This document shows, in pieces, positions 40,381-60,030 of a stretch of 64,000 nt of DNA; position 1 is the first letter of the stretch, and the number at the start of each line of letters is the position of its first letter. A program made the translations under genes and the position numbers. The notes below the pieces were generated by a model. It saw only the letters and a list, made by a program, of their open reading frames with translations, made no database searches and was not told the DNA's origin. This stretch comes from Halanaeroarchaeum sulfurireducens (GTDB taxonomy: Archaea > Halobacteriota > Halobacteria > Halobacteriales > Halobacteriaceae), in contig NZ_CP008874.1 of assembly GCF_001011115.1 (NCBI RefSeq), positions 1,998,440-2,062,439 of the forward strand, given 5' to 3'.

Positions 40381-40485
40381 GGGCACGTAGCTCAGTCCGG
40401 ATAGAGCGTCGGACTTCTATTCGCGGCAGCACGGCTGTCGGGAGAAGACATCCGACGGTCGTGGGTTCGAATCCCACCGTGCCCG
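40381..40485 (+). tRNA. tRNA-Arg(UCU) with a 30-nt intron
   Basis: The mature tRNA is 75 nt. Acceptor GGGCACG (40381-40387) pairs with CGTGCCC (40478-40484), discriminator G at 40485. The anticodon TCT is at 40416-40418 in loop CTTCTA/A. A 30-nt intron, 40420-40449, follows position 37. The pre-tRNA folds into a canonical bulge-helix-bulge: four-pair helix CTTC/GAAG with three-nucleotide bulges TAT and ACA, the splices falling after the second base of each bulge. T-arm GTGGGTTCGAATCCCAC is intact. Confidence 0.93.
40464..40485 (+). repeat. 22-bp tRNA 3'-end core, copy 1 (inside the tRNA)
   Basis: The segment beginning GGTTCGAATCCCACCGTGCC and ending CG is the 3' end of the tRNA-Arg gene. It recurs exactly at 40566-40587 and 40975-40996, as att sites do when elements integrate at a tRNA gene. 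A decayed inverted version (GGCACGGGATTCGAGCCC) is at 40519-40536. Confidence 0.85.
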
Positions 40486-51803: not shown

Positions 51804-51813
51804 TTAATATATT
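51804..51813 (+). promoter_or_regulatory. TATA-like element of the argG leader
   Basis: TTAATATATT, about 30 nt before the ATG at 51838, in an AT-rich island. It is the strongest promoter-like sequence upstream of argG; close to argG itself only a weak GAATAC is seen. Confidence 0.65.
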
Positions 51814-51837
51814 GGACCCAAATATTATCTCGTAACG

Positions 51838-51930
51838 ATGCACGCTCCGGCCAGCGTCGTGGGTACGCCCGCCGCTAGCGCGGAGTCCGTCTCCGTTTTC
51901 CTGCCGCGACGACGACCGGGGTCCTTTTAG
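51838..51930 (+). CDS. Candidate 30-residue leader peptide upstream of argG
   Basis: From ATG at 51838: MHAPASVVGTPAASAES then VSVFLPRRRPGSF, stop TAG at 51928-51930. The ATG lies where a leaderless transcript from the TATA box at 51804 would begin. The three Arg codons are consecutive CGA triplets, just before a hairpin that includes the stop codon. The position, in front of an arginine-synthesis gene, recalls an attenuator leader. This is inference; the reading frame could also be a chance one. Confidence 0.5.
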   Translation: MHAPASVVGTPAASAESVSVFLPRRRPGSF

Positions 51931-51935
51931 ACCCC
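51918..51935 (+). promoter_or_regulatory. Hairpin overlapping the leader-peptide stop codon
   Basis: GGGGTC (51918-51923) pairs with GACCCC (51930-51935) around the loop CTTTTA. The stop codon of the leader ORF is in the loop and right arm. Ribosomes at the Arg codons would cover or free this stem. No U-run follows it, so it is not a classical terminator. Confidence 0.55.
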
Positions 51936-52023
51936 CTCATCATACCACAATCGACCCGACTGGTCGCTCGTTCCAACTCGTCGCGGCATCGCCGTTCGAA
52001 TACACCCCCAACCGATCCACACA

Positions 52024-53259
52024 ATGTCACAGGAGACGGTCGCGCTCGCCTTTTCGGGCGGGCTCGACACCACGGTCAGCGTACCGCTGCTGAAAGAAGA
52101 GTACGGCTACGACGAGGTCATCGGCGTCACCGTCGACGTCGGCCAGCCCCAGGCCGAGTTCGACGAGGCGACCGAGACTGCCGAAGCGCACGACATCGAG
52201 CACTACCTCGTCGACGCAACCGAGGAGTTCGCCGACGTCTGTTTCGACGCGGTCAAGGCGAACGCCACCTACCAGGGCTATCCCCTGGGGACCGCACTCG
52301 CACGCCCGGTCATCGCCCAGAAGATACTCGACGTCGCCATCGAACACGGCGCGTCGGCGGTCGCCCACGGTGCGACCGGGAAAGGCAACGACCAGCTCCG
52401 GTTTGAGGCGGTCTGGCGCCAGTCCGACCTCGAGGTCATCGCGCCCATCCGCGAACTCGGCCTCACCCGCGAGTGGGAGATCGAGTACGCCAATGAGAAG
52501 GGCCTCCCCGTCGACGCCGGGAACGACGGCGAGTGGTCCATCGACTCGAACCTCTGGAGTCGGTCCATCGAGGGGGGCGATCTCGAGGACCCGGCACACG
52601 TCCCGACCCAGGACATCTACGACTGGACCGACGCGCCCACCGGCGAGACCGCGACGGTCGAGATCGCCTTCGCGGAGGGCGTCCCGATCGGCCTCGACGG
52701 CGAACCGATGGAGCCCGTCGAGCTGATCGAGACGCTCAACGACCTCGCCGGGCAGTACGGCGTCGGTCGCACGGACCTCATGGAGGACCGCATGCTCGGC
52801 CTCAAGGTTCGCGAGAACTACGAGCATCCGGCGGCGACGACGCTCCTCGCGGCACACGAGGCCCTCGAGGGGCTCGTCCTGACCAAGGACGAGCGCCAGT
52901 TCAAAACGCAGATCGACCAGCAGTGGGCCGAGAAGGCCTACGAAGGACTGCTCTCCGTCCCGTTCGTGAGCGCTCTGGAGGGATTCATCGCCGAGACTCA
53001 GACCGCGGTGACCGGCACGGTGACCGTCAAGTTCGAGGGGGGCCAGGCGCGGCCGGTCGCCCGCGAGAGCGAGCACTCGGTTTACTCCGAATCGGCCGCC
53101 TCCTTCGACACGGAGGGCGTCCTCGGGGATATCACCCAGTCGGACGCGACGGGCGTCGCCAAGTACCATGGCTTCCAGGGCCGTCTCGCGAATACGAGCG
53201 GGGAAACCGGGACGGACACTCACGAACTGACCGCCGACGGCGGAAACGACGAGGAGTGA
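52024..53259 (+). CDS. argG: Argininosuccinate synthase
   Basis: Joins citrulline and aspartate using ATP, the penultimate step of arginine synthesis. The 411-residue enzyme has the PP-loop AFSGGLDTTVSV near residue 9, AHGATGKGNDQLRFE near residue 113 and RSIEGGDLEDP near residue 180. It is adjacent to argH, with the stop one base before the argH start. The strongest promoter-like element upstream is 220 bp away, ahead of a small ORF, so its leader is probably long. Confidence 0.96.
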   Translation: MSQETVALAFSGGLDTTVSVPLLKEEYGYDEVIGVTVDVGQPQAEFDEATETAEAHDIEHYLVDATEEFADVCFDAVKANATYQGYPLGTALARPVIAQKILDVAIEHGASAVAHGATGKGNDQLRFEAVWRQSDLEVIAPIRELGLTREWEIEYANEKGLPVDAGNDGEWSIDSNLWSRSIEGGDLEDPAHVPTQDIYDWTDAPTGETATVEIAFAEGVPIGLDGEPMEPVELIETLNDLAGQYGVGRTDLMEDRMLGLKVRENYEHPAATTLLAAHEALEGLVLTKDERQFKTQIDQQWAEKAYEGLLSVPFVSALEGFIAETQTAVTGTVTVKFEGGQARPVARESEHSVYSESAASFDTEGVLGDITQSDATGVAKYHGFQGRLANTSGETGTDTHELTADGGNDEE

Positions 53260-53260
53260 G

Positions 53261-54730
53261 ATGACCGACGGCGACGAGGGTCCCGACACGGTGGTTCGCC
53301 GCGACCGCTTCAGCGGCGGCCCCGCCCGGGAGTTCCTCTCCTCGATGGCCGACGACGAGCGCATCTTCGCCGCGGACCTCGCGGTCGACCGCGCCCACGT
53401 CGCCATGCTCGCCGAGCAGGACATCGTCGCAGACGACGAAGCGGCGATTATCTACCGGGCGCTCGATCGTGTCGAGGAGGGCGGCTTTTCCGGGTTGCCC
53501 GACGGCGAGGACGTCCACGAGGCGATCGAGACGGCCGTCGTCGACGCGGTCGGTCCGGTCGGGGGCAAGATGCACACCGCGCGCTCGCGCAACGACGAGG
53601 TCGCGACGTGCATCCGGTATCGCCTCCGGTCGGATTTGCTGGAGGTCGCCAGGGTCGCGGCCGGCTTCCGCGAGCAGGTGGCCGACACCGCCGCGGCGAA
53701 CGTCGAGACGGTGATGCCCGGCTACACCCACCTCCAGCCCGCACAGCCCACGACGGTCGCCCACTGGCTCTCGTCGTACGTTCAGGCGGCCGAGCGTGAC
53801 ACGGCCCGCCTGCTCGACGCCTACGACCGCACGAACCGGTCGCCCCTCGGCGCGGCGGCGTTCGCGGGGACGCCCTTCGACGTCGACCGAGAGCGGACGG
53901 CCGACCTCCTGGGCTTCGACGGCCTCGTCGAGAACGCGATGGACGCGGTCTCCACGCGGGACTTCCTCCTCGAATCCGTCGCGGCGCTCGCGGGCCTCGC
54001 GAACACGCTCTCCGGACTGGCCGAGGATCTGGTCGTGCTCGCCAACAAGGGGCTCGTGGCCGTGCACGACGACTACGCCTCGACGTCCTCGATCATGCCC
54101 CAGAAGAAGAATCCGGACACCCTCGAACTCGTCCGCGCGACAGCGGGCGATGCGAGCGCGGCCCTGAACGGGCTGCTTACCACCCTGAAGGGGCTGCCCC
54201 GGTCGTACAACCGCGACCTGCAGAACGCGACCGGGTACGCCTGGGAGGCCGTCGACGCCGTGACCGAGGCCACCGCGGTCGCGGGCGGCGCAGTCGGGAC
54301 GGCCACCTGGCCCGAGAGGGCGCTCGAAGCCGCCGCCGGCGAAGGGTTCTCGACGGCGACCGGCGTCGCCGACCTGCTGGCGATGGGCGGAATGCCGTTC
54401 CGGACGGCCCACGAGATCGTGGCGAGTGCGGCCGAGGACGCGACGGACGGATCGCCCGACCTCGCCACCATCGAAGCCGCCACGCGGGAGGTCACCGGCG
54501 CAGCCCTGTCCGAGTACGTCTCTCGCGAGGCCGTCGAATCGGCGCTCGACCCGGTCGAGAGCGTCAGTTCGCGCGATTCGCGCGGCGGCCCGGGCCCGGA
54601 CGCCGCCGAGGCCACCCTGAAGGAGCTGACCGCCTCCCTCGAAACCCACCGTGACGCCATCGACGAGCGCCAGCGCCGGATCCAACGGGCGACCGACCGT
54701 CGCCAGGAGGTCGTCGAACGCTATGTGTGA
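53261..54730 (+). CDS. argH: Argininosuccinate lyase
   Basis: Cleaves argininosuccinate to arginine and fumarate. A 489-residue fumarase/aspartase superfamily protein with the signature SSIMPQKKNPD near residue 277, catalytic TARSRND near residue 105 and PGYTHLQPAQPT near residue 153. It begins one base after argG, as an operon. The stretch SRDSRGGPGPDA near residue 427 is a low-complexity insert. Confidence 0.96.
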   Translation: MTDGDEGPDTVVRRDRFSGGPAREFLSSMADDERIFAADLAVDRAHVAMLAEQDIVADDEAAIIYRALDRVEEGGFSGLPDGEDVHEAIETAVVDAVGPVGGKMHTARSRNDEVATCIRYRLRSDLLEVARVAAGFREQVADTAAANVETVMPGYTHLQPAQPTTVAHWLSSYVQAAERDTARLLDAYDRTNRSPLGAAAFAGTPFDVDRERTADLLGFDGLVENAMDAVSTRDFLLESVAALAGLANTLSGLAEDLVVLANKGLVAVHDDYASTSSIMPQKKNPDTLELVRATAGDASAALNGLLTTLKGLPRSYNRDLQNATGYAWEAVDAVTEATAVAGGAVGTATWPERALEAAAGEGFSTATGVADLLAMGGMPFRTAHEIVASAAEDATDGSPDLATIEAATREVTGAALSEYVSREAVESALDPVESVSSRDSRGGPGPDAAEATLKELTASLETHRDAIDERQRRIQRATDRRQEVVERYV

Positions 54731-54882
54731 GCGACCCACGGTCTGTGGCCCGCGGCTGGCCGACCGCCCGCGACCGCCACGACGACCGCCCCGTTGTGGG
54801 GCACATATCACAAAACCGTCAAGGCGCGACGGAAAACGATTCAGTTGAATTGGGCTTTCAGACATCGTTAGACGGTAGTCCG

Positions 54883-54908
54883 GATATTGTAAGCTATCTG
54901 GTAATATC
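54883..54908. promoter_or_regulatory. Inverted repeat upstream of the argW operon
   Basis: GATATT (54883-54888) and AATATC (54903-54908) form perfect six-base arms with a 14-base centre. It lies immediately upstream of the TATA-like CTTAAG (54915-54920) of argW, where an operator for arginine control could be. No regulator gene is nearby. Confidence 0.5.
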
Positions 54909-54947
54909 GACATCCTTAAGTGGGTAGACCGGATACACACGACTGCA

Positions 54948-55112
54948 ATGACAGCGTGTCCCGAGTGCGGGGCCGACGTGGCCCTGCACGACGACCTCGA
55001 AGTGGGAGAGATCGTCGACTGTTCGACCTGCGGTACCGAACTGGAGGTCACCGACGTGAACCCGCCGGTCCTCGAACGAGCCCCGGAGCTCGACGAGGAC
55101 TGGGGGGAGTGA
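54948..55112 (+). CDS. argW: LysW/ArgW amino-group carrier protein
   Basis: A 54-residue zinc protein with CPECG near residue 4 and CSTCG near residue 25, ending in the EDWGE tail whose terminal Glu is joined to the substrate's amino group. The carrier protects the glutamate amino group during arginine (and possibly lysine) synthesis. The ATG at 54948 lies about 30 nt after the TATA-like CTTAAG. The argX start overlaps its stop by four bases (GTGA). Confidence 0.94.
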   Translation: MTACPECGADVALHDDLEVGEIVDCSTCGTELEVTDVNPPVLERAPELDEDWGE

Positions 55113-55999
55113 CCGTGGACGTCGGCCTCCTCTACTCCCGGATCCGCCAGGACGAGAAGCTCCTCCTCGCCGAGCTGCGCGACCGCGGCCACGAGGTGCA
55201 CAAGGTGGACGTCCGCGACCAGCAGTTCGGCCCCCAGGAGTCGAGTGCGGACTTCGACGCGATGGACGTCGTCCTGGACCGGACGCTCGCGACCAGTCGG
55301 TCGCTTTACACCACGAGCTTCCTCGACGCCTACGACGTGCCCGTGATCAACGACGCGGAGACGGCCCGCGTCTGTGCCGACAAGGTCCAGACCACGCTCG
55401 CACTCGCGCAGGCCGACGTCCAGACCCCGGAGACGAAAGTCGCGTACACCGTCGACAGCGCGATGGAGGCCATCGAGTCCTTTGGCTACCCCGTCGTGCT
55501 CAAGCCCGTGGTCGGTTCGTGGGGCCGGCTGTTGGCCCGGATCGAGGACGAACACGCCGCCGAGGCCCTCCTCGAGCACAAGGCGACGCTGGGACACTAC
55601 GAGCACAAGGTGTTCTACATCCAGGAGTTCGTCGACAAGCCGGGCCGCGACTTCCGGGTACTCGCGCTCGACGGCACCCCGGTCGCCGGAATGGTTCGCT
55701 CCTCGGATCACTGGCTGACGAACGCCGCGAAGGGCGCGAAGACGGCCGAACTCGAGATCACGCCAGAGATCGCCGAGATCGTCGAGAACGCGAGCGCGGC
55801 GGTCGGCGGCGGCATGCTCGGCATCGACATCATGGAGACCGAGGACGGCGAGTACACCGTTCACGAGATCAATCACACGGTCGAGTTCAAGGCGCTGACC
55901 GACGCCGTCGAGGTCGACGTTCCCGCGGCGGTCGTCGACTGGCTCGAGGTGAAAGTTGCCCAATCGACCGAGGGCTCCACCGGCGAGGTGACCGCCTGA
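55109..55999 (+). CDS. argX: Glutamate-LysW ligase ArgX
   Basis: A 296-residue ATP-grasp ligase that attaches glutamate to the C-terminus of the LysW carrier. YPVVLKPVVGSWGRL near residue 127 and the metal-binding EINHTVEFKAL near residue 256 define the ATP-grasp core. The NTVEFK-type signature (HTVEFKAL) is that of glutamate-specific ArgX/bifunctional LysX. The start is GTG at 55109, overlapping argW; GTG at 55115 is also possible. Confidence 0.9.
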   Translation: MTVDVGLLYSRIRQDEKLLLAELRDRGHEVHKVDVRDQQFGPQESSADFDAMDVVLDRTLATSRSLYTTSFLDAYDVPVINDAETARVCADKVQTTLALAQADVQTPETKVAYTVDSAMEAIESFGYPVVLKPVVGSWGRLLARIEDEHAAEALLEHKATLGHYEHKVFYIQEFVDKPGRDFRVLALDGTPVAGMVRSSDHWLTNAAKGAKTAELEITPEIAEIVENASAAVGGGMLGIDIMETEDGEYTVHEINHTVEFKALTDAVEVDVPAAVVDWLEVKVAQSTEGSTGEVTA

Positions 56000-57075
56000 T
56001 GGCCACGGGCGCGACTCCCGAAACCGGGGCGGGGACGGCGGACACGGTCTCCGCATCGGTCGTGGGCGCGAGTGGATTTACCGGGGGCGAGCTGCTCCGG
56101 CTGCTGGCCGGCCACCCGCGGTTCGCGGTGGCCCAGGCGACCAGTCGCGAGTACGCAAATCGTACCGTCGGTAGCGTCCACCCGAACCTTCGCCACCTCG
56201 ACGTCAGGTTCGTTTCTCCCGACGAGATAGAACCGGTCGACGTCCTGTTCGCCGCGATGCCTCACGGCGCCTCGATGGAGCGTATCGAGGAGTTTCGCGA
56301 CCTGGCCGGAACGGTCGTAGACCTGAGTGCGGACTTCCGCCTCGACGACGCGACCAAGTACGACGAGTGGTACGACGGTCACACGGCCCCCGAGCACCTC
56401 GACGACGCCGTGTACGCGCTACCCGAGCGCCATCGCGACGAACTGCCGGGCGCCGACATCGTGGCGAGCGGTGGCTGCAACGCGACCGCGACGATCCTGG
56501 GTCTCGGGCCGCTCGCGGACGCCGACCTCCTCGACGGGGCGGACGTGGTGGTCGACGTGAAGGTCGGCTCCTCGGAGGGGGGCGCCGGCGGCGGCGAGGC
56601 CGGCTCGCACCCCGAACGCTCCGGCGTGGTCCGTCCCTACGCCCCGACTGGCCATCGCCACGAAGCCGAGATCGAGCAGGAACTCGGCCTGTCGGTCTCG
56701 TTCACCGCTCACGCGGTGGACATGGTGCGCGGCGCCTCGGCGACCGCTCACGTCTTCCCCGAGGATCTCCCCACAAAGGGGGACCTGTGGACGGCCTTCC
56801 GCGGGGCCTACGAGGACGAACCGTTCGTGCGCCTCGTGGCCGGCGGCGGGGGCGTCTATCGCTACCCCGAGCCCAAGGCCGTCGCGGCGACGAACCACGC
56901 AGAGGTCGGCTTCGAACTCGACGAACGCAACGACCGGCTCGTGGTTTTCAGCGCCATCGACAACATGATGAAGGGCTCGGCGGGGCAGGCGGTTCACGCC
57001 GCCAACGTCGCGCTCGGCTTCGAAGAGACCGCCGGCCTCGACTTTCAGGGGCTCCACCCCGTGGGCGCGCCATGA
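55999..57075 (+). CDS. argC: [LysW]-glutamyl-phosphate reductase
   Basis: A 358-residue NADPH-dependent reductase of the ArgC/LysY family. Rossmann GASGFTGGELLR near residue 23, catalytic Cys in SGGCNATATILG near residue 160, and the FTAHAVDMVRG near residue 235 are present. It reduces the phosphorylated LysW-bound intermediate to the semialdehyde. The start overlaps the argX stop (TGATG). The N-terminal 15 residues are an extension relative to some relatives. Confidence 0.93.
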   Translation: MATGATPETGAGTADTVSASVVGASGFTGGELLRLLAGHPRFAVAQATSREYANRTVGSVHPNLRHLDVRFVSPDEIEPVDVLFAAMPHGASMERIEEFRDLAGTVVDLSADFRLDDATKYDEWYDGHTAPEHLDDAVYALPERHRDELPGADIVASGGCNATATILGLGPLADADLLDGADVVVDVKVGSSEGGAGGGEAGSHPERSGVVRPYAPTGHRHEAEIEQELGLSVSFTAHAVDMVRGASATAHVFPEDLPTKGDLWTAFRGAYEDEPFVRLVAGGGGVYRYPEPKAVAATNHAEVGFELDERNDRLVVFSAIDNMMKGSAGQAVHAANVALGFEETAGLDFQGLHPVGAP

Positions 57076-57887
57076 TCGTGGTGAAGATTGGCGGCGCGCG
57101 GGCCGTCGACCCCCAGGGAGCGATCGACGACGTCGCCACGCTCGTGGGCGAGGGCGAGGCGGTCGTCGTGGTCCACGGCGGTTCGACAGCCGTGGACGAC
57201 GCCCTGGAGGCGGTGGGTACCGAGCCCGAATACGTCGAGACCCCCGACGGCGTCACGGGCCGGTTCACCGACGCGGAGACGATGGACGTCTTCACGATGG
57301 CGATGGGCAAGGTCAACACCGACCTCGTGACCGACCTCCAGAACGCGGGCATTTCGGCGGTCGGCCTCAACGGGGTCGACGGTGGCCTGCTCACCGGTCG
57401 CCGCAAGTCCGCCGTCAAGGTCCGCGAGGACGGCAAGACGAAGATCCGGCGCGGCGATCACTCCGGGACCATCACGGACGTGAACGAGGACCTCCTGGAG
57501 ACGCTGCTCGACGCCGGCTACACCCCCGTCGTGAGCGTACCAATGCTGGCCGAGGACGGCGTGGCCGTCAACACGGACGCAGACCGGGCTGCCGCGGCCG
57601 TCGCCGGTGCCACGGGCGCCTCGCTGGTCGTCCTGACCGACGTGGCCGGCGTCTACGAGGATCCCGCGGATCCGACGACCCGCATCGAATCGGTCGACTC
57701 CCCCGCGGCCCTCGACCGGACGAAGGCGGCCGCTGAGGGGTTCATGACAAAGAAAGTCCTGGCCGCGACCGAGGCGCTCGAGGGGGGCGCCGCCGAGGTC
57801 GTAGTCGCCGAGGCGACGGCGGAGACGCCCATCGTGTCGGCCCTCGAGGGCGACGCCACCAGATTCGAACCGGACGCGATAGCATGA
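57072..57887 (+). CDS. argB: [LysW]-aminoadipate/glutamate kinase
   Basis: A 271-residue amino-acid kinase family protein. KIGGARAV near residue 5, VVHGGSTAVDD near residue 34, and the DVAGVYEDPADP near residue 193 are the family motifs. It phosphorylates the gamma-carboxyl of the LysW-linked glutamate. The start overlaps the argC stop by four bases (ATGA). Confidence 0.93.
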   Translation: MIVVKIGGARAVDPQGAIDDVATLVGEGEAVVVVHGGSTAVDDALEAVGTEPEYVETPDGVTGRFTDAETMDVFTMAMGKVNTDLVTDLQNAGISAVGLNGVDGGLLTGRRKSAVKVREDGKTKIRRGDHSGTITDVNEDLLETLLDAGYTPVVSVPMLAEDGVAVNTDADRAAAAVAGATGASLVVLTDVAGVYEDPADPTTRIESVDSPAALDRTKAAAEGFMTKKVLAATEALEGGAAEVVVAEATAETPIVSALEGDATRFEPDAIA

Positions 57888-59005
57888 GTGGATTCGTCTT
57901 CTCCCAGAAACCGATCGAGATCGAATCGGGCGCGGGACCGTACCTGACCGACACGAACGGCACCCAGTACCTCGACATGGGCGCGAGTTACGCGGTCGCG
58001 AGCGTCGGCCATGGCCATCCGGCGGTCGTCCAGGCCGTCAAAGAGCAGGCCGAGGAGTTGCTGTTCGTCCAGGGATCGTATCCGGTCGCGGTACGCGAGG
58101 CGCTCCGCGAGAAGCTCGACGCCATCGCGCCGGGCGGCCTCGACAACGTCTGGCTCGCCAACTCGGGGACCGAGGCGAACGAGGCCGCCCTCAAGTTCGC
58201 CCGCCACGCAACGGGCCGGTCGAAGATCGTGGCGGCGAACCGGGGCTTCCACGGACGGACGATGGGGTCGCTGGCGGCCACCTGGAAAGAGAAATACAAG
58301 CAGGGATTCGGCCCGCTAGCCGGCGATTTCGTCCACGTCCCCTACGACGACCCGGACGCGCTGGCGGCGGCCGTCGACGAGGAGACCGCCGCGGTCATCC
58401 TCGAACCGATCCAGGGCGAGGGGGGCATCCGCCCCGCCTCGACGGCGTACCTGGAGCGGGCGCGTGAGGTGACCGAGGAGGCGGGCGCGGCGCTCATTTT
58501 CGACGAGATCCAGACGGGGCTCGGGCGGACCGGCACGATGTGGGCCCACGAGCCGGCAGGTATCGCACCGGACGTGCTCACGGTCGCAAAGGGCCTCGGG
58601 AGCGGGCTACCGGTCAGCGCGACCCTCGTTGCGGACTGGATCGCCGAGGACCCCGGCAACCACGGTTCGACGTTCAGCGGAAGCCCAATCGTCGCCGCGG
58701 CCGCCGGCGCGACCCTCGACGTCATCGAGTCGGACGGATTGGTGGAGAACGCCGGCACGGTCGGCGGCTATTTGAAATCCCGCCTCGAGGAACTGGAGGG
58801 GCCGCGCGAGGTCCGCGGCGATGGACTGCTGCTCGGGGTCGAGGTGAAACGGGGGGCCAACCGCCACCTCAAGCACCTCGCGCTCGACCACCAGATCCTG
58901 GCGCTCCCCGCCGGCAGGACCGTGATCCGCCTCCTCCCACCGCTGATCGTCTCCGAGACCCACGCCGACGAGACGGTCGCCGCGCTGGCGGAGGTGCTCG
59001 AGTGA
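57884..59005 (+). CDS. argD: [LysW]-ornithine/lysine aminotransferase
   Basis: A 373-residue PLP aminotransferase of the acetylornithine type. ANSGTEANEAALKFAR near residue 90, FDEIQTGLGRTG near residue 206 and the Schiff-base Lys in TVAKGLGSG near residue 231 are present. It converts the LysW-bound semialdehyde to ornithine. Overlaps argB by four bases. Confidence 0.94.
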   Translation: MSGFVFSQKPIEIESGAGPYLTDTNGTQYLDMGASYAVASVGHGHPAVVQAVKEQAEELLFVQGSYPVAVREALREKLDAIAPGGLDNVWLANSGTEANEAALKFARHATGRSKIVAANRGFHGRTMGSLAATWKEKYKQGFGPLAGDFVHVPYDDPDALAAAVDEETAAVILEPIQGEGGIRPASTAYLERAREVTEEAGAALIFDEIQTGLGRTGTMWAHEPAGIAPDVLTVAKGLGSGLPVSATLVADWIAEDPGNHGSTFSGSPIVAAAAGATLDVIESDGLVENAGTVGGYLKSRLEELEGPREVRGDGLLLGVEVKRGANRHLKHLALDHQILALPAGRTVIRLLPPLIVSETHADETVAALAEVLE

Positions 59006-60030
59006 TGGGCGGCGGCCGAACGCTCCTCCGCGACCTCGTCGAGACCCCCTCTGTTTCAGGTAGAGAGACGGCGGCCACCGAGCGTCTCGTCGACGCCTTC
59101 GAATCGGCCGACCGCGAGGTCTGGATCGACGAGGTCGGGAACGTCAGGGCGCCGGCGGACGATAGCGTCCTGCTCACGTCCCATATCGACACCGTTCCTG
59201 GAGAGATCCCCGTCCGTGAAGAGGACGGAGTCCTCTGGGGTCGGGGGGCTGTCGACGCGAAGGGGCCGTTGGCCGCGATGGCGACCGCTGCACTCGAAAC
59301 TGGGGTGAGCTTCGCGGGCGTGGTCGAGGAGGAGACCACCTCGCGAGGGGCTCATCACCTCGTCGAGACGCGGGACGTTCCCGAGGCCGTCGTCAACGGC
59401 GAACCCAGCGGGTGGGCGGGCGTCGTCCTCGGATATCGCGGCTTTCACGCGGGCACGTATCGGGTCGAGGAACCCGCCGGCCATTCGGCGCTGTCGGATC
59501 GGAACGCAATCGAGCGGGCGATGGCGTGGTGGGGCGACGTCAGCGAGGCCGTCGAGGCGACCGATGGGGAGTCCGACACGCCGGTCTTCGAACAGCGAAC
59601 CGCGAAACCGGTCGCCGTCGAGGGTGGCGTGACCGACGACGGCCTGGCGACGGCGGCGACCGTTGACGCCCAGTTCCGTCTGCCGCCGGGGACGACGGGC
59701 GACGACGTCGAGGCCACGGTCGCGGACGCGACCGACGCGGGCGGCGTCGAGTGGGAGACGCCGATCGCCCCGGTGATGCGGAGCCCACGAAACGCGGTCG
59801 CGCGGGCACTCAGGGCCGGCATCCGGGCAGGGGACGGCGAGCCGACGCATCTGCGCAAGACCGGCACCAGCGACATGAACGTCTACGCCGAGGCCTGGGA
59901 CGTCCCGATGGCGACCTACGGCCCGGGGGACTCCTCTCTGGATCATACGCCCGACGAACACATCGAACTGGTAGAATTCGATCGGAGCGTCACGGTGCTG
60001 ACCCACGCGGCGGCCGAACTCCGGGAGTGA
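59005..60030 (+). CDS. argE: [LysW]-ornithine/lysine hydrolase
   Basis: A 341-residue M20-family metallopeptidase that releases ornithine from the LysW carrier. LTSHIDTVPG near residue 56 and GRGAVDAKGPLAAM near residue 79 hold the metal ligands, and VEEETTSRGAHHL near residue 111 the catalytic Glu. It overlaps argD (TGATG). It ends the operon; ornithine carbamoyltransferase (argF) is not here. Confidence 0.92.
   Translation: MGGGRTLLRDLVETPSVSGRETAATERLVDAFESADREVWIDEVGNVRAPADDSVLLTSHIDTVPGEIPVREEDGVLWGRGAVDAKGPLAAMATAALETGVSFAGVVEEETTSRGAHHLVETRDVPEAVVNGEPSGWAGVVLGYRGFHAGTYRVEEPAGHSALSDRNAIERAMAWWGDVSEAVEATDGESDTPVFEQRTAKPVAVEGGVTDDGLATAATVDAQFRLPPGTTGDDVEATVADATDAGGVEWETPIAPVMRSPRNAVARALRAGIRAGDGEPTHLRKTGTSDMNVYAEAWDVPMATYGPGDSSLDHTPDEHIELVEFDRSVTVLTHAAAELRE

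Follow-up and report, generated by a model that had tools for sequence, protein, structure and literature searches.

Leader-peptide attenuation is a textbook bacterial mechanism, which requires transcription and translation to be tightly coupled. The fungal arginine attenuator peptide, encoded by the upstream ORF (uORF) of arg-2/CPA1, is a conserved peptide that senses arginine and stalls. The described bacterial attenuators (those of trp, his, ilv and phe, pheM before pheST, and the actinobacterial leaders; PMC1262725) consist of a short ORF rich in cognate codons that heads the cognate operon and is followed by a conserved RNA hairpin, a layout that they share with the locus described here. 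For archaea, the literature searched, which did not extend to most subscription papers or to preprints, yielded no account of leader-peptide attenuation. In the portion of the Haloferax dRNA-seq study considered here (PMC4983044), uORFs in 150-250-nt leaders include one of 26 aa in the pheS 5'-UTR, and the uORF table contains neither argG nor ilvB. As for termination, a 17-nt stretch of the emerging RNA is contacted by FttA together with the polymerase stalk (PMC11616081), and binding of FttA and of the ribosome to the polymerase has been proposed to be mutually exclusive (PMC11616081, PMC8116511); no attenuator using FttA/aCPSF1 was found in the literature searched. Here, we have analyzed the region in front of argG in a 64-kb stretch of haloarchaeal DNA (the window) together with its counterparts in relatives, and we propose that it is probably a cis-acting, arginine-specific leader-peptide attenuator in which the ribosome is the sensor.

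Results

The leader precedes an arginine operon with the order argG-H-(W)-X-C-B-D-E, in which argG is at the head (Table 1). The first-pass annotation had reported a strong TATA-like box at 51804 upstream of a small ORF, 30 codons opened by an ATG, a stop inside a 6-bp GGGGTC/GACCCC hairpin and about 90 nt from there to argG, all of which we recovered, the last distance being 88 nt. The only point in need of correction concerns the end of the ORF: the three CGA codons are present as claimed but not at the very end, since four codons intervene before the stop (CGA-CGA-CGA-CCG-GGG-TCC-TTT-TAG). The 5' arm of the hairpin starts two nucleotides past the last Arg codon. The RNA that extends from the presumed 5' end of the transcript into argG folds better than shuffled sequences (z -3.0), and the first part of the leader may form a stem of its own, with a weak mean folding z of -1.2 (n=122 leaders). 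A scan for intrinsic terminators found no U-run before argG, where the hairpin is instead followed by a G-free tract of A, C and T. A sigma-70 scan of the region returned nothing, and the only match to Rfam covariance models at gathering score in the window was a tRNA at 40381-40485.

Table 1. Features of the argG leader and of the arginine operon, in window coordinates
Feature	Position	Strand	Basis or remark
TATA-like box TTAATATATT of leader promoter	51804-51813	+	read from sequence; 34 nt 5' of leader ATG
Leader ORF, 30 codons, MHAPASVVGTPAASAESVSVFLPRRRPGSF then stop	51838-51930	+	ATG at 51838; probably leaderless or nearly so
Predicted stem in first part of leader ORF	51838-51900	+	folding; exact pairs differ between folds; weak
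Possible outer stem, Arg-codon strand TGCCGCGACGA	51902-51912	+	folding/pairing prediction
Three tandem CGA (Arg) codons, putative control codons	51907-51915	+	sequence
Hairpin GGGGTC-CTTTTA-GACCCC, 6 bp	51918-51935	+	sequence; pairing probability 0.99; 5' arm GGGGTC 51918-51923, loop 51924-51929, 3' arm GACCCC 51930-51935
TAG stop within hairpin	51928-51930	+	overlaps loop and first base of 3' arm
G-free tract, 17 nt	51936-51952	+	sequence; directly 3' of hairpin
Possible outer stem, exact complement TCGTCGCGGCA of Arg-codon strand	51978-51988	+	exact 11-mer
argG, first gene of arginine operon	52024-53259	+	NCBIfam argG
argH, argW, argX, argC, argB, argD, argE	53261-60030	+	NCBIfam matches; argW by position only, no model match

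The same layout, that is, a TATA box, a leader ORF, Arg codons, a stop in a GC hairpin and a G-free tract, is shared by nearly all sampled haloarchaea. Our sample covers the sequence upstream of argG in about 130 haloarchaea (132 regions, of which ~116 are distinct by hairpin region, some species being in both collections), and statements about whole genomes come from pattern and profile searches. In every one of the first 96 regions, from which identical copies had been removed, a GC hairpin follows Arg codons. An ATG-to-stop leader ORF is present in 125/132 relatives, with a median length of 30 codons and a mean of 3.7 Arg in its last eight codons, and a TATA-like box lies 30-34 nt 5' of the leader ATG in 118 of these 125. 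The first ATG past the best TATA-like box opens the Arg frame in 94/118 cases (p = 7e-25, an optimistic value because the sequences are related), and the stop overlaps the hairpin loop or 3' arm in 111/125 leaders. Nearly every family of the order that was sampled has the element. It was not found in one deep lineage (G040), two genomes (G082 and G083) lack it or have a degenerate form, and the hairpin stop or the ORF has been lost in some species (L012, L038, L046, L051, G029, G058 and G089). In 20 genomes of non-halophilic relatives from elsewhere in the phylum, no Arg-rich leader was found before argG.

Two lineage-specific arrangements were observed. The Natronorubrum-like leaders (L012, L038, L046, L051) keep the Arg run and the hairpin and have lost the in-frame hairpin stop, their ORF extending to about 76-88 nt before argG. 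In long-leader lineages (L002, L016, L020, L066, L067), a second TATA-like box is found within the last 40 nt before argG, which suggests an additional promoter that may bypass the leader.

For a strict test, the element was defined as an ORF of 15-60 codons with at least three Arg in its last 8 codons, a stop in a hairpin of at least 5 bp and, over the 17 nt that follow, no more than one G. This definition retrieves 91 of the 132 argG upstream regions and, across roughly 1.0 Mb of haloarchaeal sequence from other loci, nothing. Both strands of the window yield a single match, as does the argG upstream stretch scanned alone. A looser pattern, GGGG-N5-12-CCCC followed by 16 non-G bases, matches three times in the 2.2-Mb genome: at argG, at ilvB and before a regulator-like gene. 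A search of 26 family genomes with a profile of the leader gave its strongest full-length matches at argG, the best match in most genomes, and weaker extra matches to short CGA-rich pieces. The third genomic match to the looser pattern (G000:C1:1053223; L329, about 1440-1530) has a possible 9-codon ORF (MLGYLRQNW, then stop) with a TATA-like box, and lies about 220 nt 5' of a gene resembling an HTH-10-type regulator.

What is conserved in the leader ORF is the arginine and, beyond this, the codon for it. CGA accounts for 332/467 (71%) of the terminal Arg codons of the leaders, versus 24/1666 (1.4%) in argG of the same loci (Fisher p about 1e-242) and 5/124 (4%) in six genes of the operon in the window. 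The residues next to the Arg codons vary (RRPG, RRPAL, RRRAL, RRTGR), with Pro replaced by Arg, Ala, Gly or Thr, and no conservation of the peptide beyond the Arg run was found across the leaders compared, which argues that it is Arg and not the peptide that is under conservation. Since Arg is kept, the synonymous choice is extreme and the neighbors vary, the likely sensor is the speed of the ribosome on the Arg codons, not the peptide. These observations bear on two other explanations. A leader peptide that, like its fungal counterpart, detects arginine while in the ribosome tunnel and causes stalling at the stop codon would account for a short uORF with a defined, RRPG-type C-terminal end in front of an arginine gene. 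However, a peptide-sensing device is hard to reconcile with conservation restricted to the Arg run, a synonymous CGA bias makes sense for codons and not for a peptide, and the leaders of ilvB and pheS carry the residues cognate to their own genes; tunnel sensing is therefore hardly credible here. The ORF could also be an independent small-protein gene that merely adjoins argG, as it has its own promoter and as argG has a second TATA-like box in some lineages. An unconserved peptide, a codon choice that opposes efficient translation, a stop fixed in the hairpin and a profile whose strongest full-length matches are at argG leave this explanation an equally slim chance.

The hairpin is conserved as a structure rather than as a sequence. 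A stem of at least five Watson-Crick base pairs is present in 92/96 relatives, when 6.3 are expected by shuffling. Because the hairpin search required G-rich and C-rich arms beside Arg-like codons, and the per-sequence count of arms thus leans towards structure, the evidence lies in the shuffle control and the control regions rather than in the count by itself. Several types of stem occur (GGGGTC/GACCCC, GGGCC/GGCCC, CGGGCC/GGCCCG, GGCCC/GGGCC and GGGGC/GCCCC), with both arms covarying; as the second pair from the loop, C-G, T-A and G-C are found in 71, 23 and 21 sequences, respectively. RNAalifold returned no pairs on a MAFFT alignment of 80 leaders because the alignment does not place these stem types in common columns, and arms were therefore counted sequence by sequence. 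Such covariation is not what would be expected of a DNA operator for an arginine repressor, with which the ORF would overlap incidentally. An operator would be in keeping with the location of the palindrome, just downstream of the promoter, and haloarchaeal trpC does have a conserved operator-like palindrome. At argG, however, the sequence of the palindrome differs among species while pairing is kept, the loop ranges from 3 to 8 nt, the register of the palindrome relative to Arg codons and stop is maintained, and ilvB displays the same layout with other codons. We consider an operator very unlikely.

Directly 3' of the hairpin is the G-free tract, typically about 17-20 nt long. The first 17 nt past the hairpin contain no G in 61/96 sequences and at most one in 89/96, as compared with 2.2% of all 17-mers in the argG upstream regions that are without G. 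Hairpins for these counts were picked without a G-free criterion; they were the same as those picked with it, and the result held. Farther downstream, a segment is complementary to the Arg-codon segment, with a z of -5.4 here and -4.3 in the sister species; over all 132 regions, the pairing is general but modest (mean z -1.25). We established no alternative structure that would exclude the hairpin and found no classical antiterminator. Base pairing between the Arg codons and upstream leader sequence was also considered and is not supported (mean z -0.25).

The downstream pairing is relevant to the main rival to termination, in which the sensor would be the same and the output would be the translation or stability of a complete argG mRNA, through ribosome re-use, unmasking or cleavage of the tract. 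The absence of a U-run terminator and the ability of the Arg strand to pair between the hairpin and argG both speak for it, and archaeal mRNA control of this kind is compatible with the sequence. Yet the pairing segment leaves the start of argG uncovered, argG follows the hairpin at very different distances (about 64-180 nt), and downstream conservation is highest in the single-stranded tract that adjoins the hairpin, not in a structure at the start codon. We judge an output of this type unlikely, and termination at the tract is the output that we favor.

Leaders of related design precede two other genes. The leader ORF of ilvB (L208-L230; in the genome of the window L211/L330, G000:C1:1775310) ends in Ile-Val-Gly-Ala/Val, its Val codon commonly being GTA, which is rare in ilvB itself (5/994 Val codons). 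Its stop lies in the loop of a GGGGC/GCCCC-type hairpin followed by a G-poor tract, which is the arg architecture with other codons. Most haloarchaea have a Phe-rich leader before pheS (L178-L205); it was found in 20 of 30 loci, and for several of the other ten a wrong gene start had been chosen. Examples are MASEPYAGCTSREPAARPGFGFFFDA and, in the genome of the window (L187), MVTGPRRRDRIATQSTGLAGFGFVFA, each followed by the stop, and ends of the GFGFFFA type, again followed by the stop. The 3' part of the pheS leader is unlike that of the arg and ilv leaders and carries other conserved stretches. No convincing leader was found before hisG, trpE or trpC, and trpE may, we presume, be internal to its operon and hence uninformative. 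Right before trpC, there is a conserved palindrome-like element of the CTTATGTACAGATACGTACATTAGTGTACA type (L286-L308), which is probably a repressor or activator site.

Discussion

Arginine-specific sensing by the ribosome is the best reading of the argG element. The first-pass annotation had proposed a ribosome-sensing attenuator for arginine, to be checked by the conservation of the Arg codons and of the hairpin in relatives. Both are kept across haloarchaea, with compensatory changes in the stem, and this conservation, the compensatory changes and the rare-codon bias together argue for that proposal. Points that speak against it are the absence of argG from the Haloferax uORF list, the lack of a U-run terminator, the species in which the hairpin stop or the ORF has been lost, the second TATA-like box of some lineages and the modest support for the outer stem.

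The mechanism that we envisage is as follows. Judging from the spacing of the TATA box, transcription would start at or just before the leader ATG, and a ribosome would enter the 30-codon ORF at once. Were charged tRNA-Arg for CGA scarce, the ribosome would stall on the tandem CGA codons, where it would cover one strand each of the hairpin (the 5' arm) and of the outer stem (the Arg strand), so that neither could form. It would not reach the G-free tract, and RNA polymerase would presumably read on into argG. Were arginine plentiful, the ribosome would proceed to the stop inside the hairpin and leave, the hairpin and outer stem would form, and the G-free tract would be exposed as ribosome-free single-stranded RNA. 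The most likely output would then be premature, factor-dependent termination before argG at the bare tract, possibly by FttA/aCPSF1. Termination by this factor acts on ribosome-free nascent RNA, and its 17-nt contact is close to the length of the tract (PMC11616081). This match fits a role for FttA, a link that we infer, and is so far a coincidence.

More tentatively, and with less than even confidence, argG, ilvB and pheS may represent a class-wide haloarchaeal family of attenuators specific for Arg, Ile/Val and Phe, respectively. In this reading, the transcripts would be leaderless and sensed by their leading ribosome, and the effector step at argG and ilvB would be FttA/aCPSF1 termination at the G-free tract. 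An element conserved at three genes, with rare cognate codons at two, makes attenuation in archaea directly testable in Haloferax volcanii. Leaders of the argG type would offer a natural assay of ribosome-polymerase coupling and of factor-dependent termination in archaea, and attenuators would explain the long 5' leaders of some haloarchaeal genes in a group whose mRNAs are mostly leaderless.

How does the element compare with the known systems? With the fungal arg-2/CPA1 uORF it shares a short uORF before an arginine-synthesis gene; in the fungal case the peptide is conserved, whereas the haloarchaeal peptide is not and its Arg codons are. With the uORFs of Haloferax volcanii it shares short ORFs in long leaders, and the 26-aa pheS uORF agrees with our Phe-rich leaders; the portion of that study considered here draws no link to amino-acid content (PMC4983044). 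The resemblance to bacterial attenuators is found at argG in a short ORF with tandem cognate codons, whose translation is predicted, at the head of the cognate operon, and it extends to the choice of genes, ilv and pheS being common to both. In contrast to its bacterial counterparts, the haloarchaeal ORF is, by promoter spacing, leaderless or nearly so, its stop is located within the hairpin, a G-free tract is found where bacteria have the U-run terminator, and no classical antiterminator was found. In structure, the argG leader is not a bacterial attenuator, as our search for a U-run terminator found none; in its logic, it appears to work like one. If the family reading is true, these leaders would be an archaeal form of attenuation with an architecture of its own.
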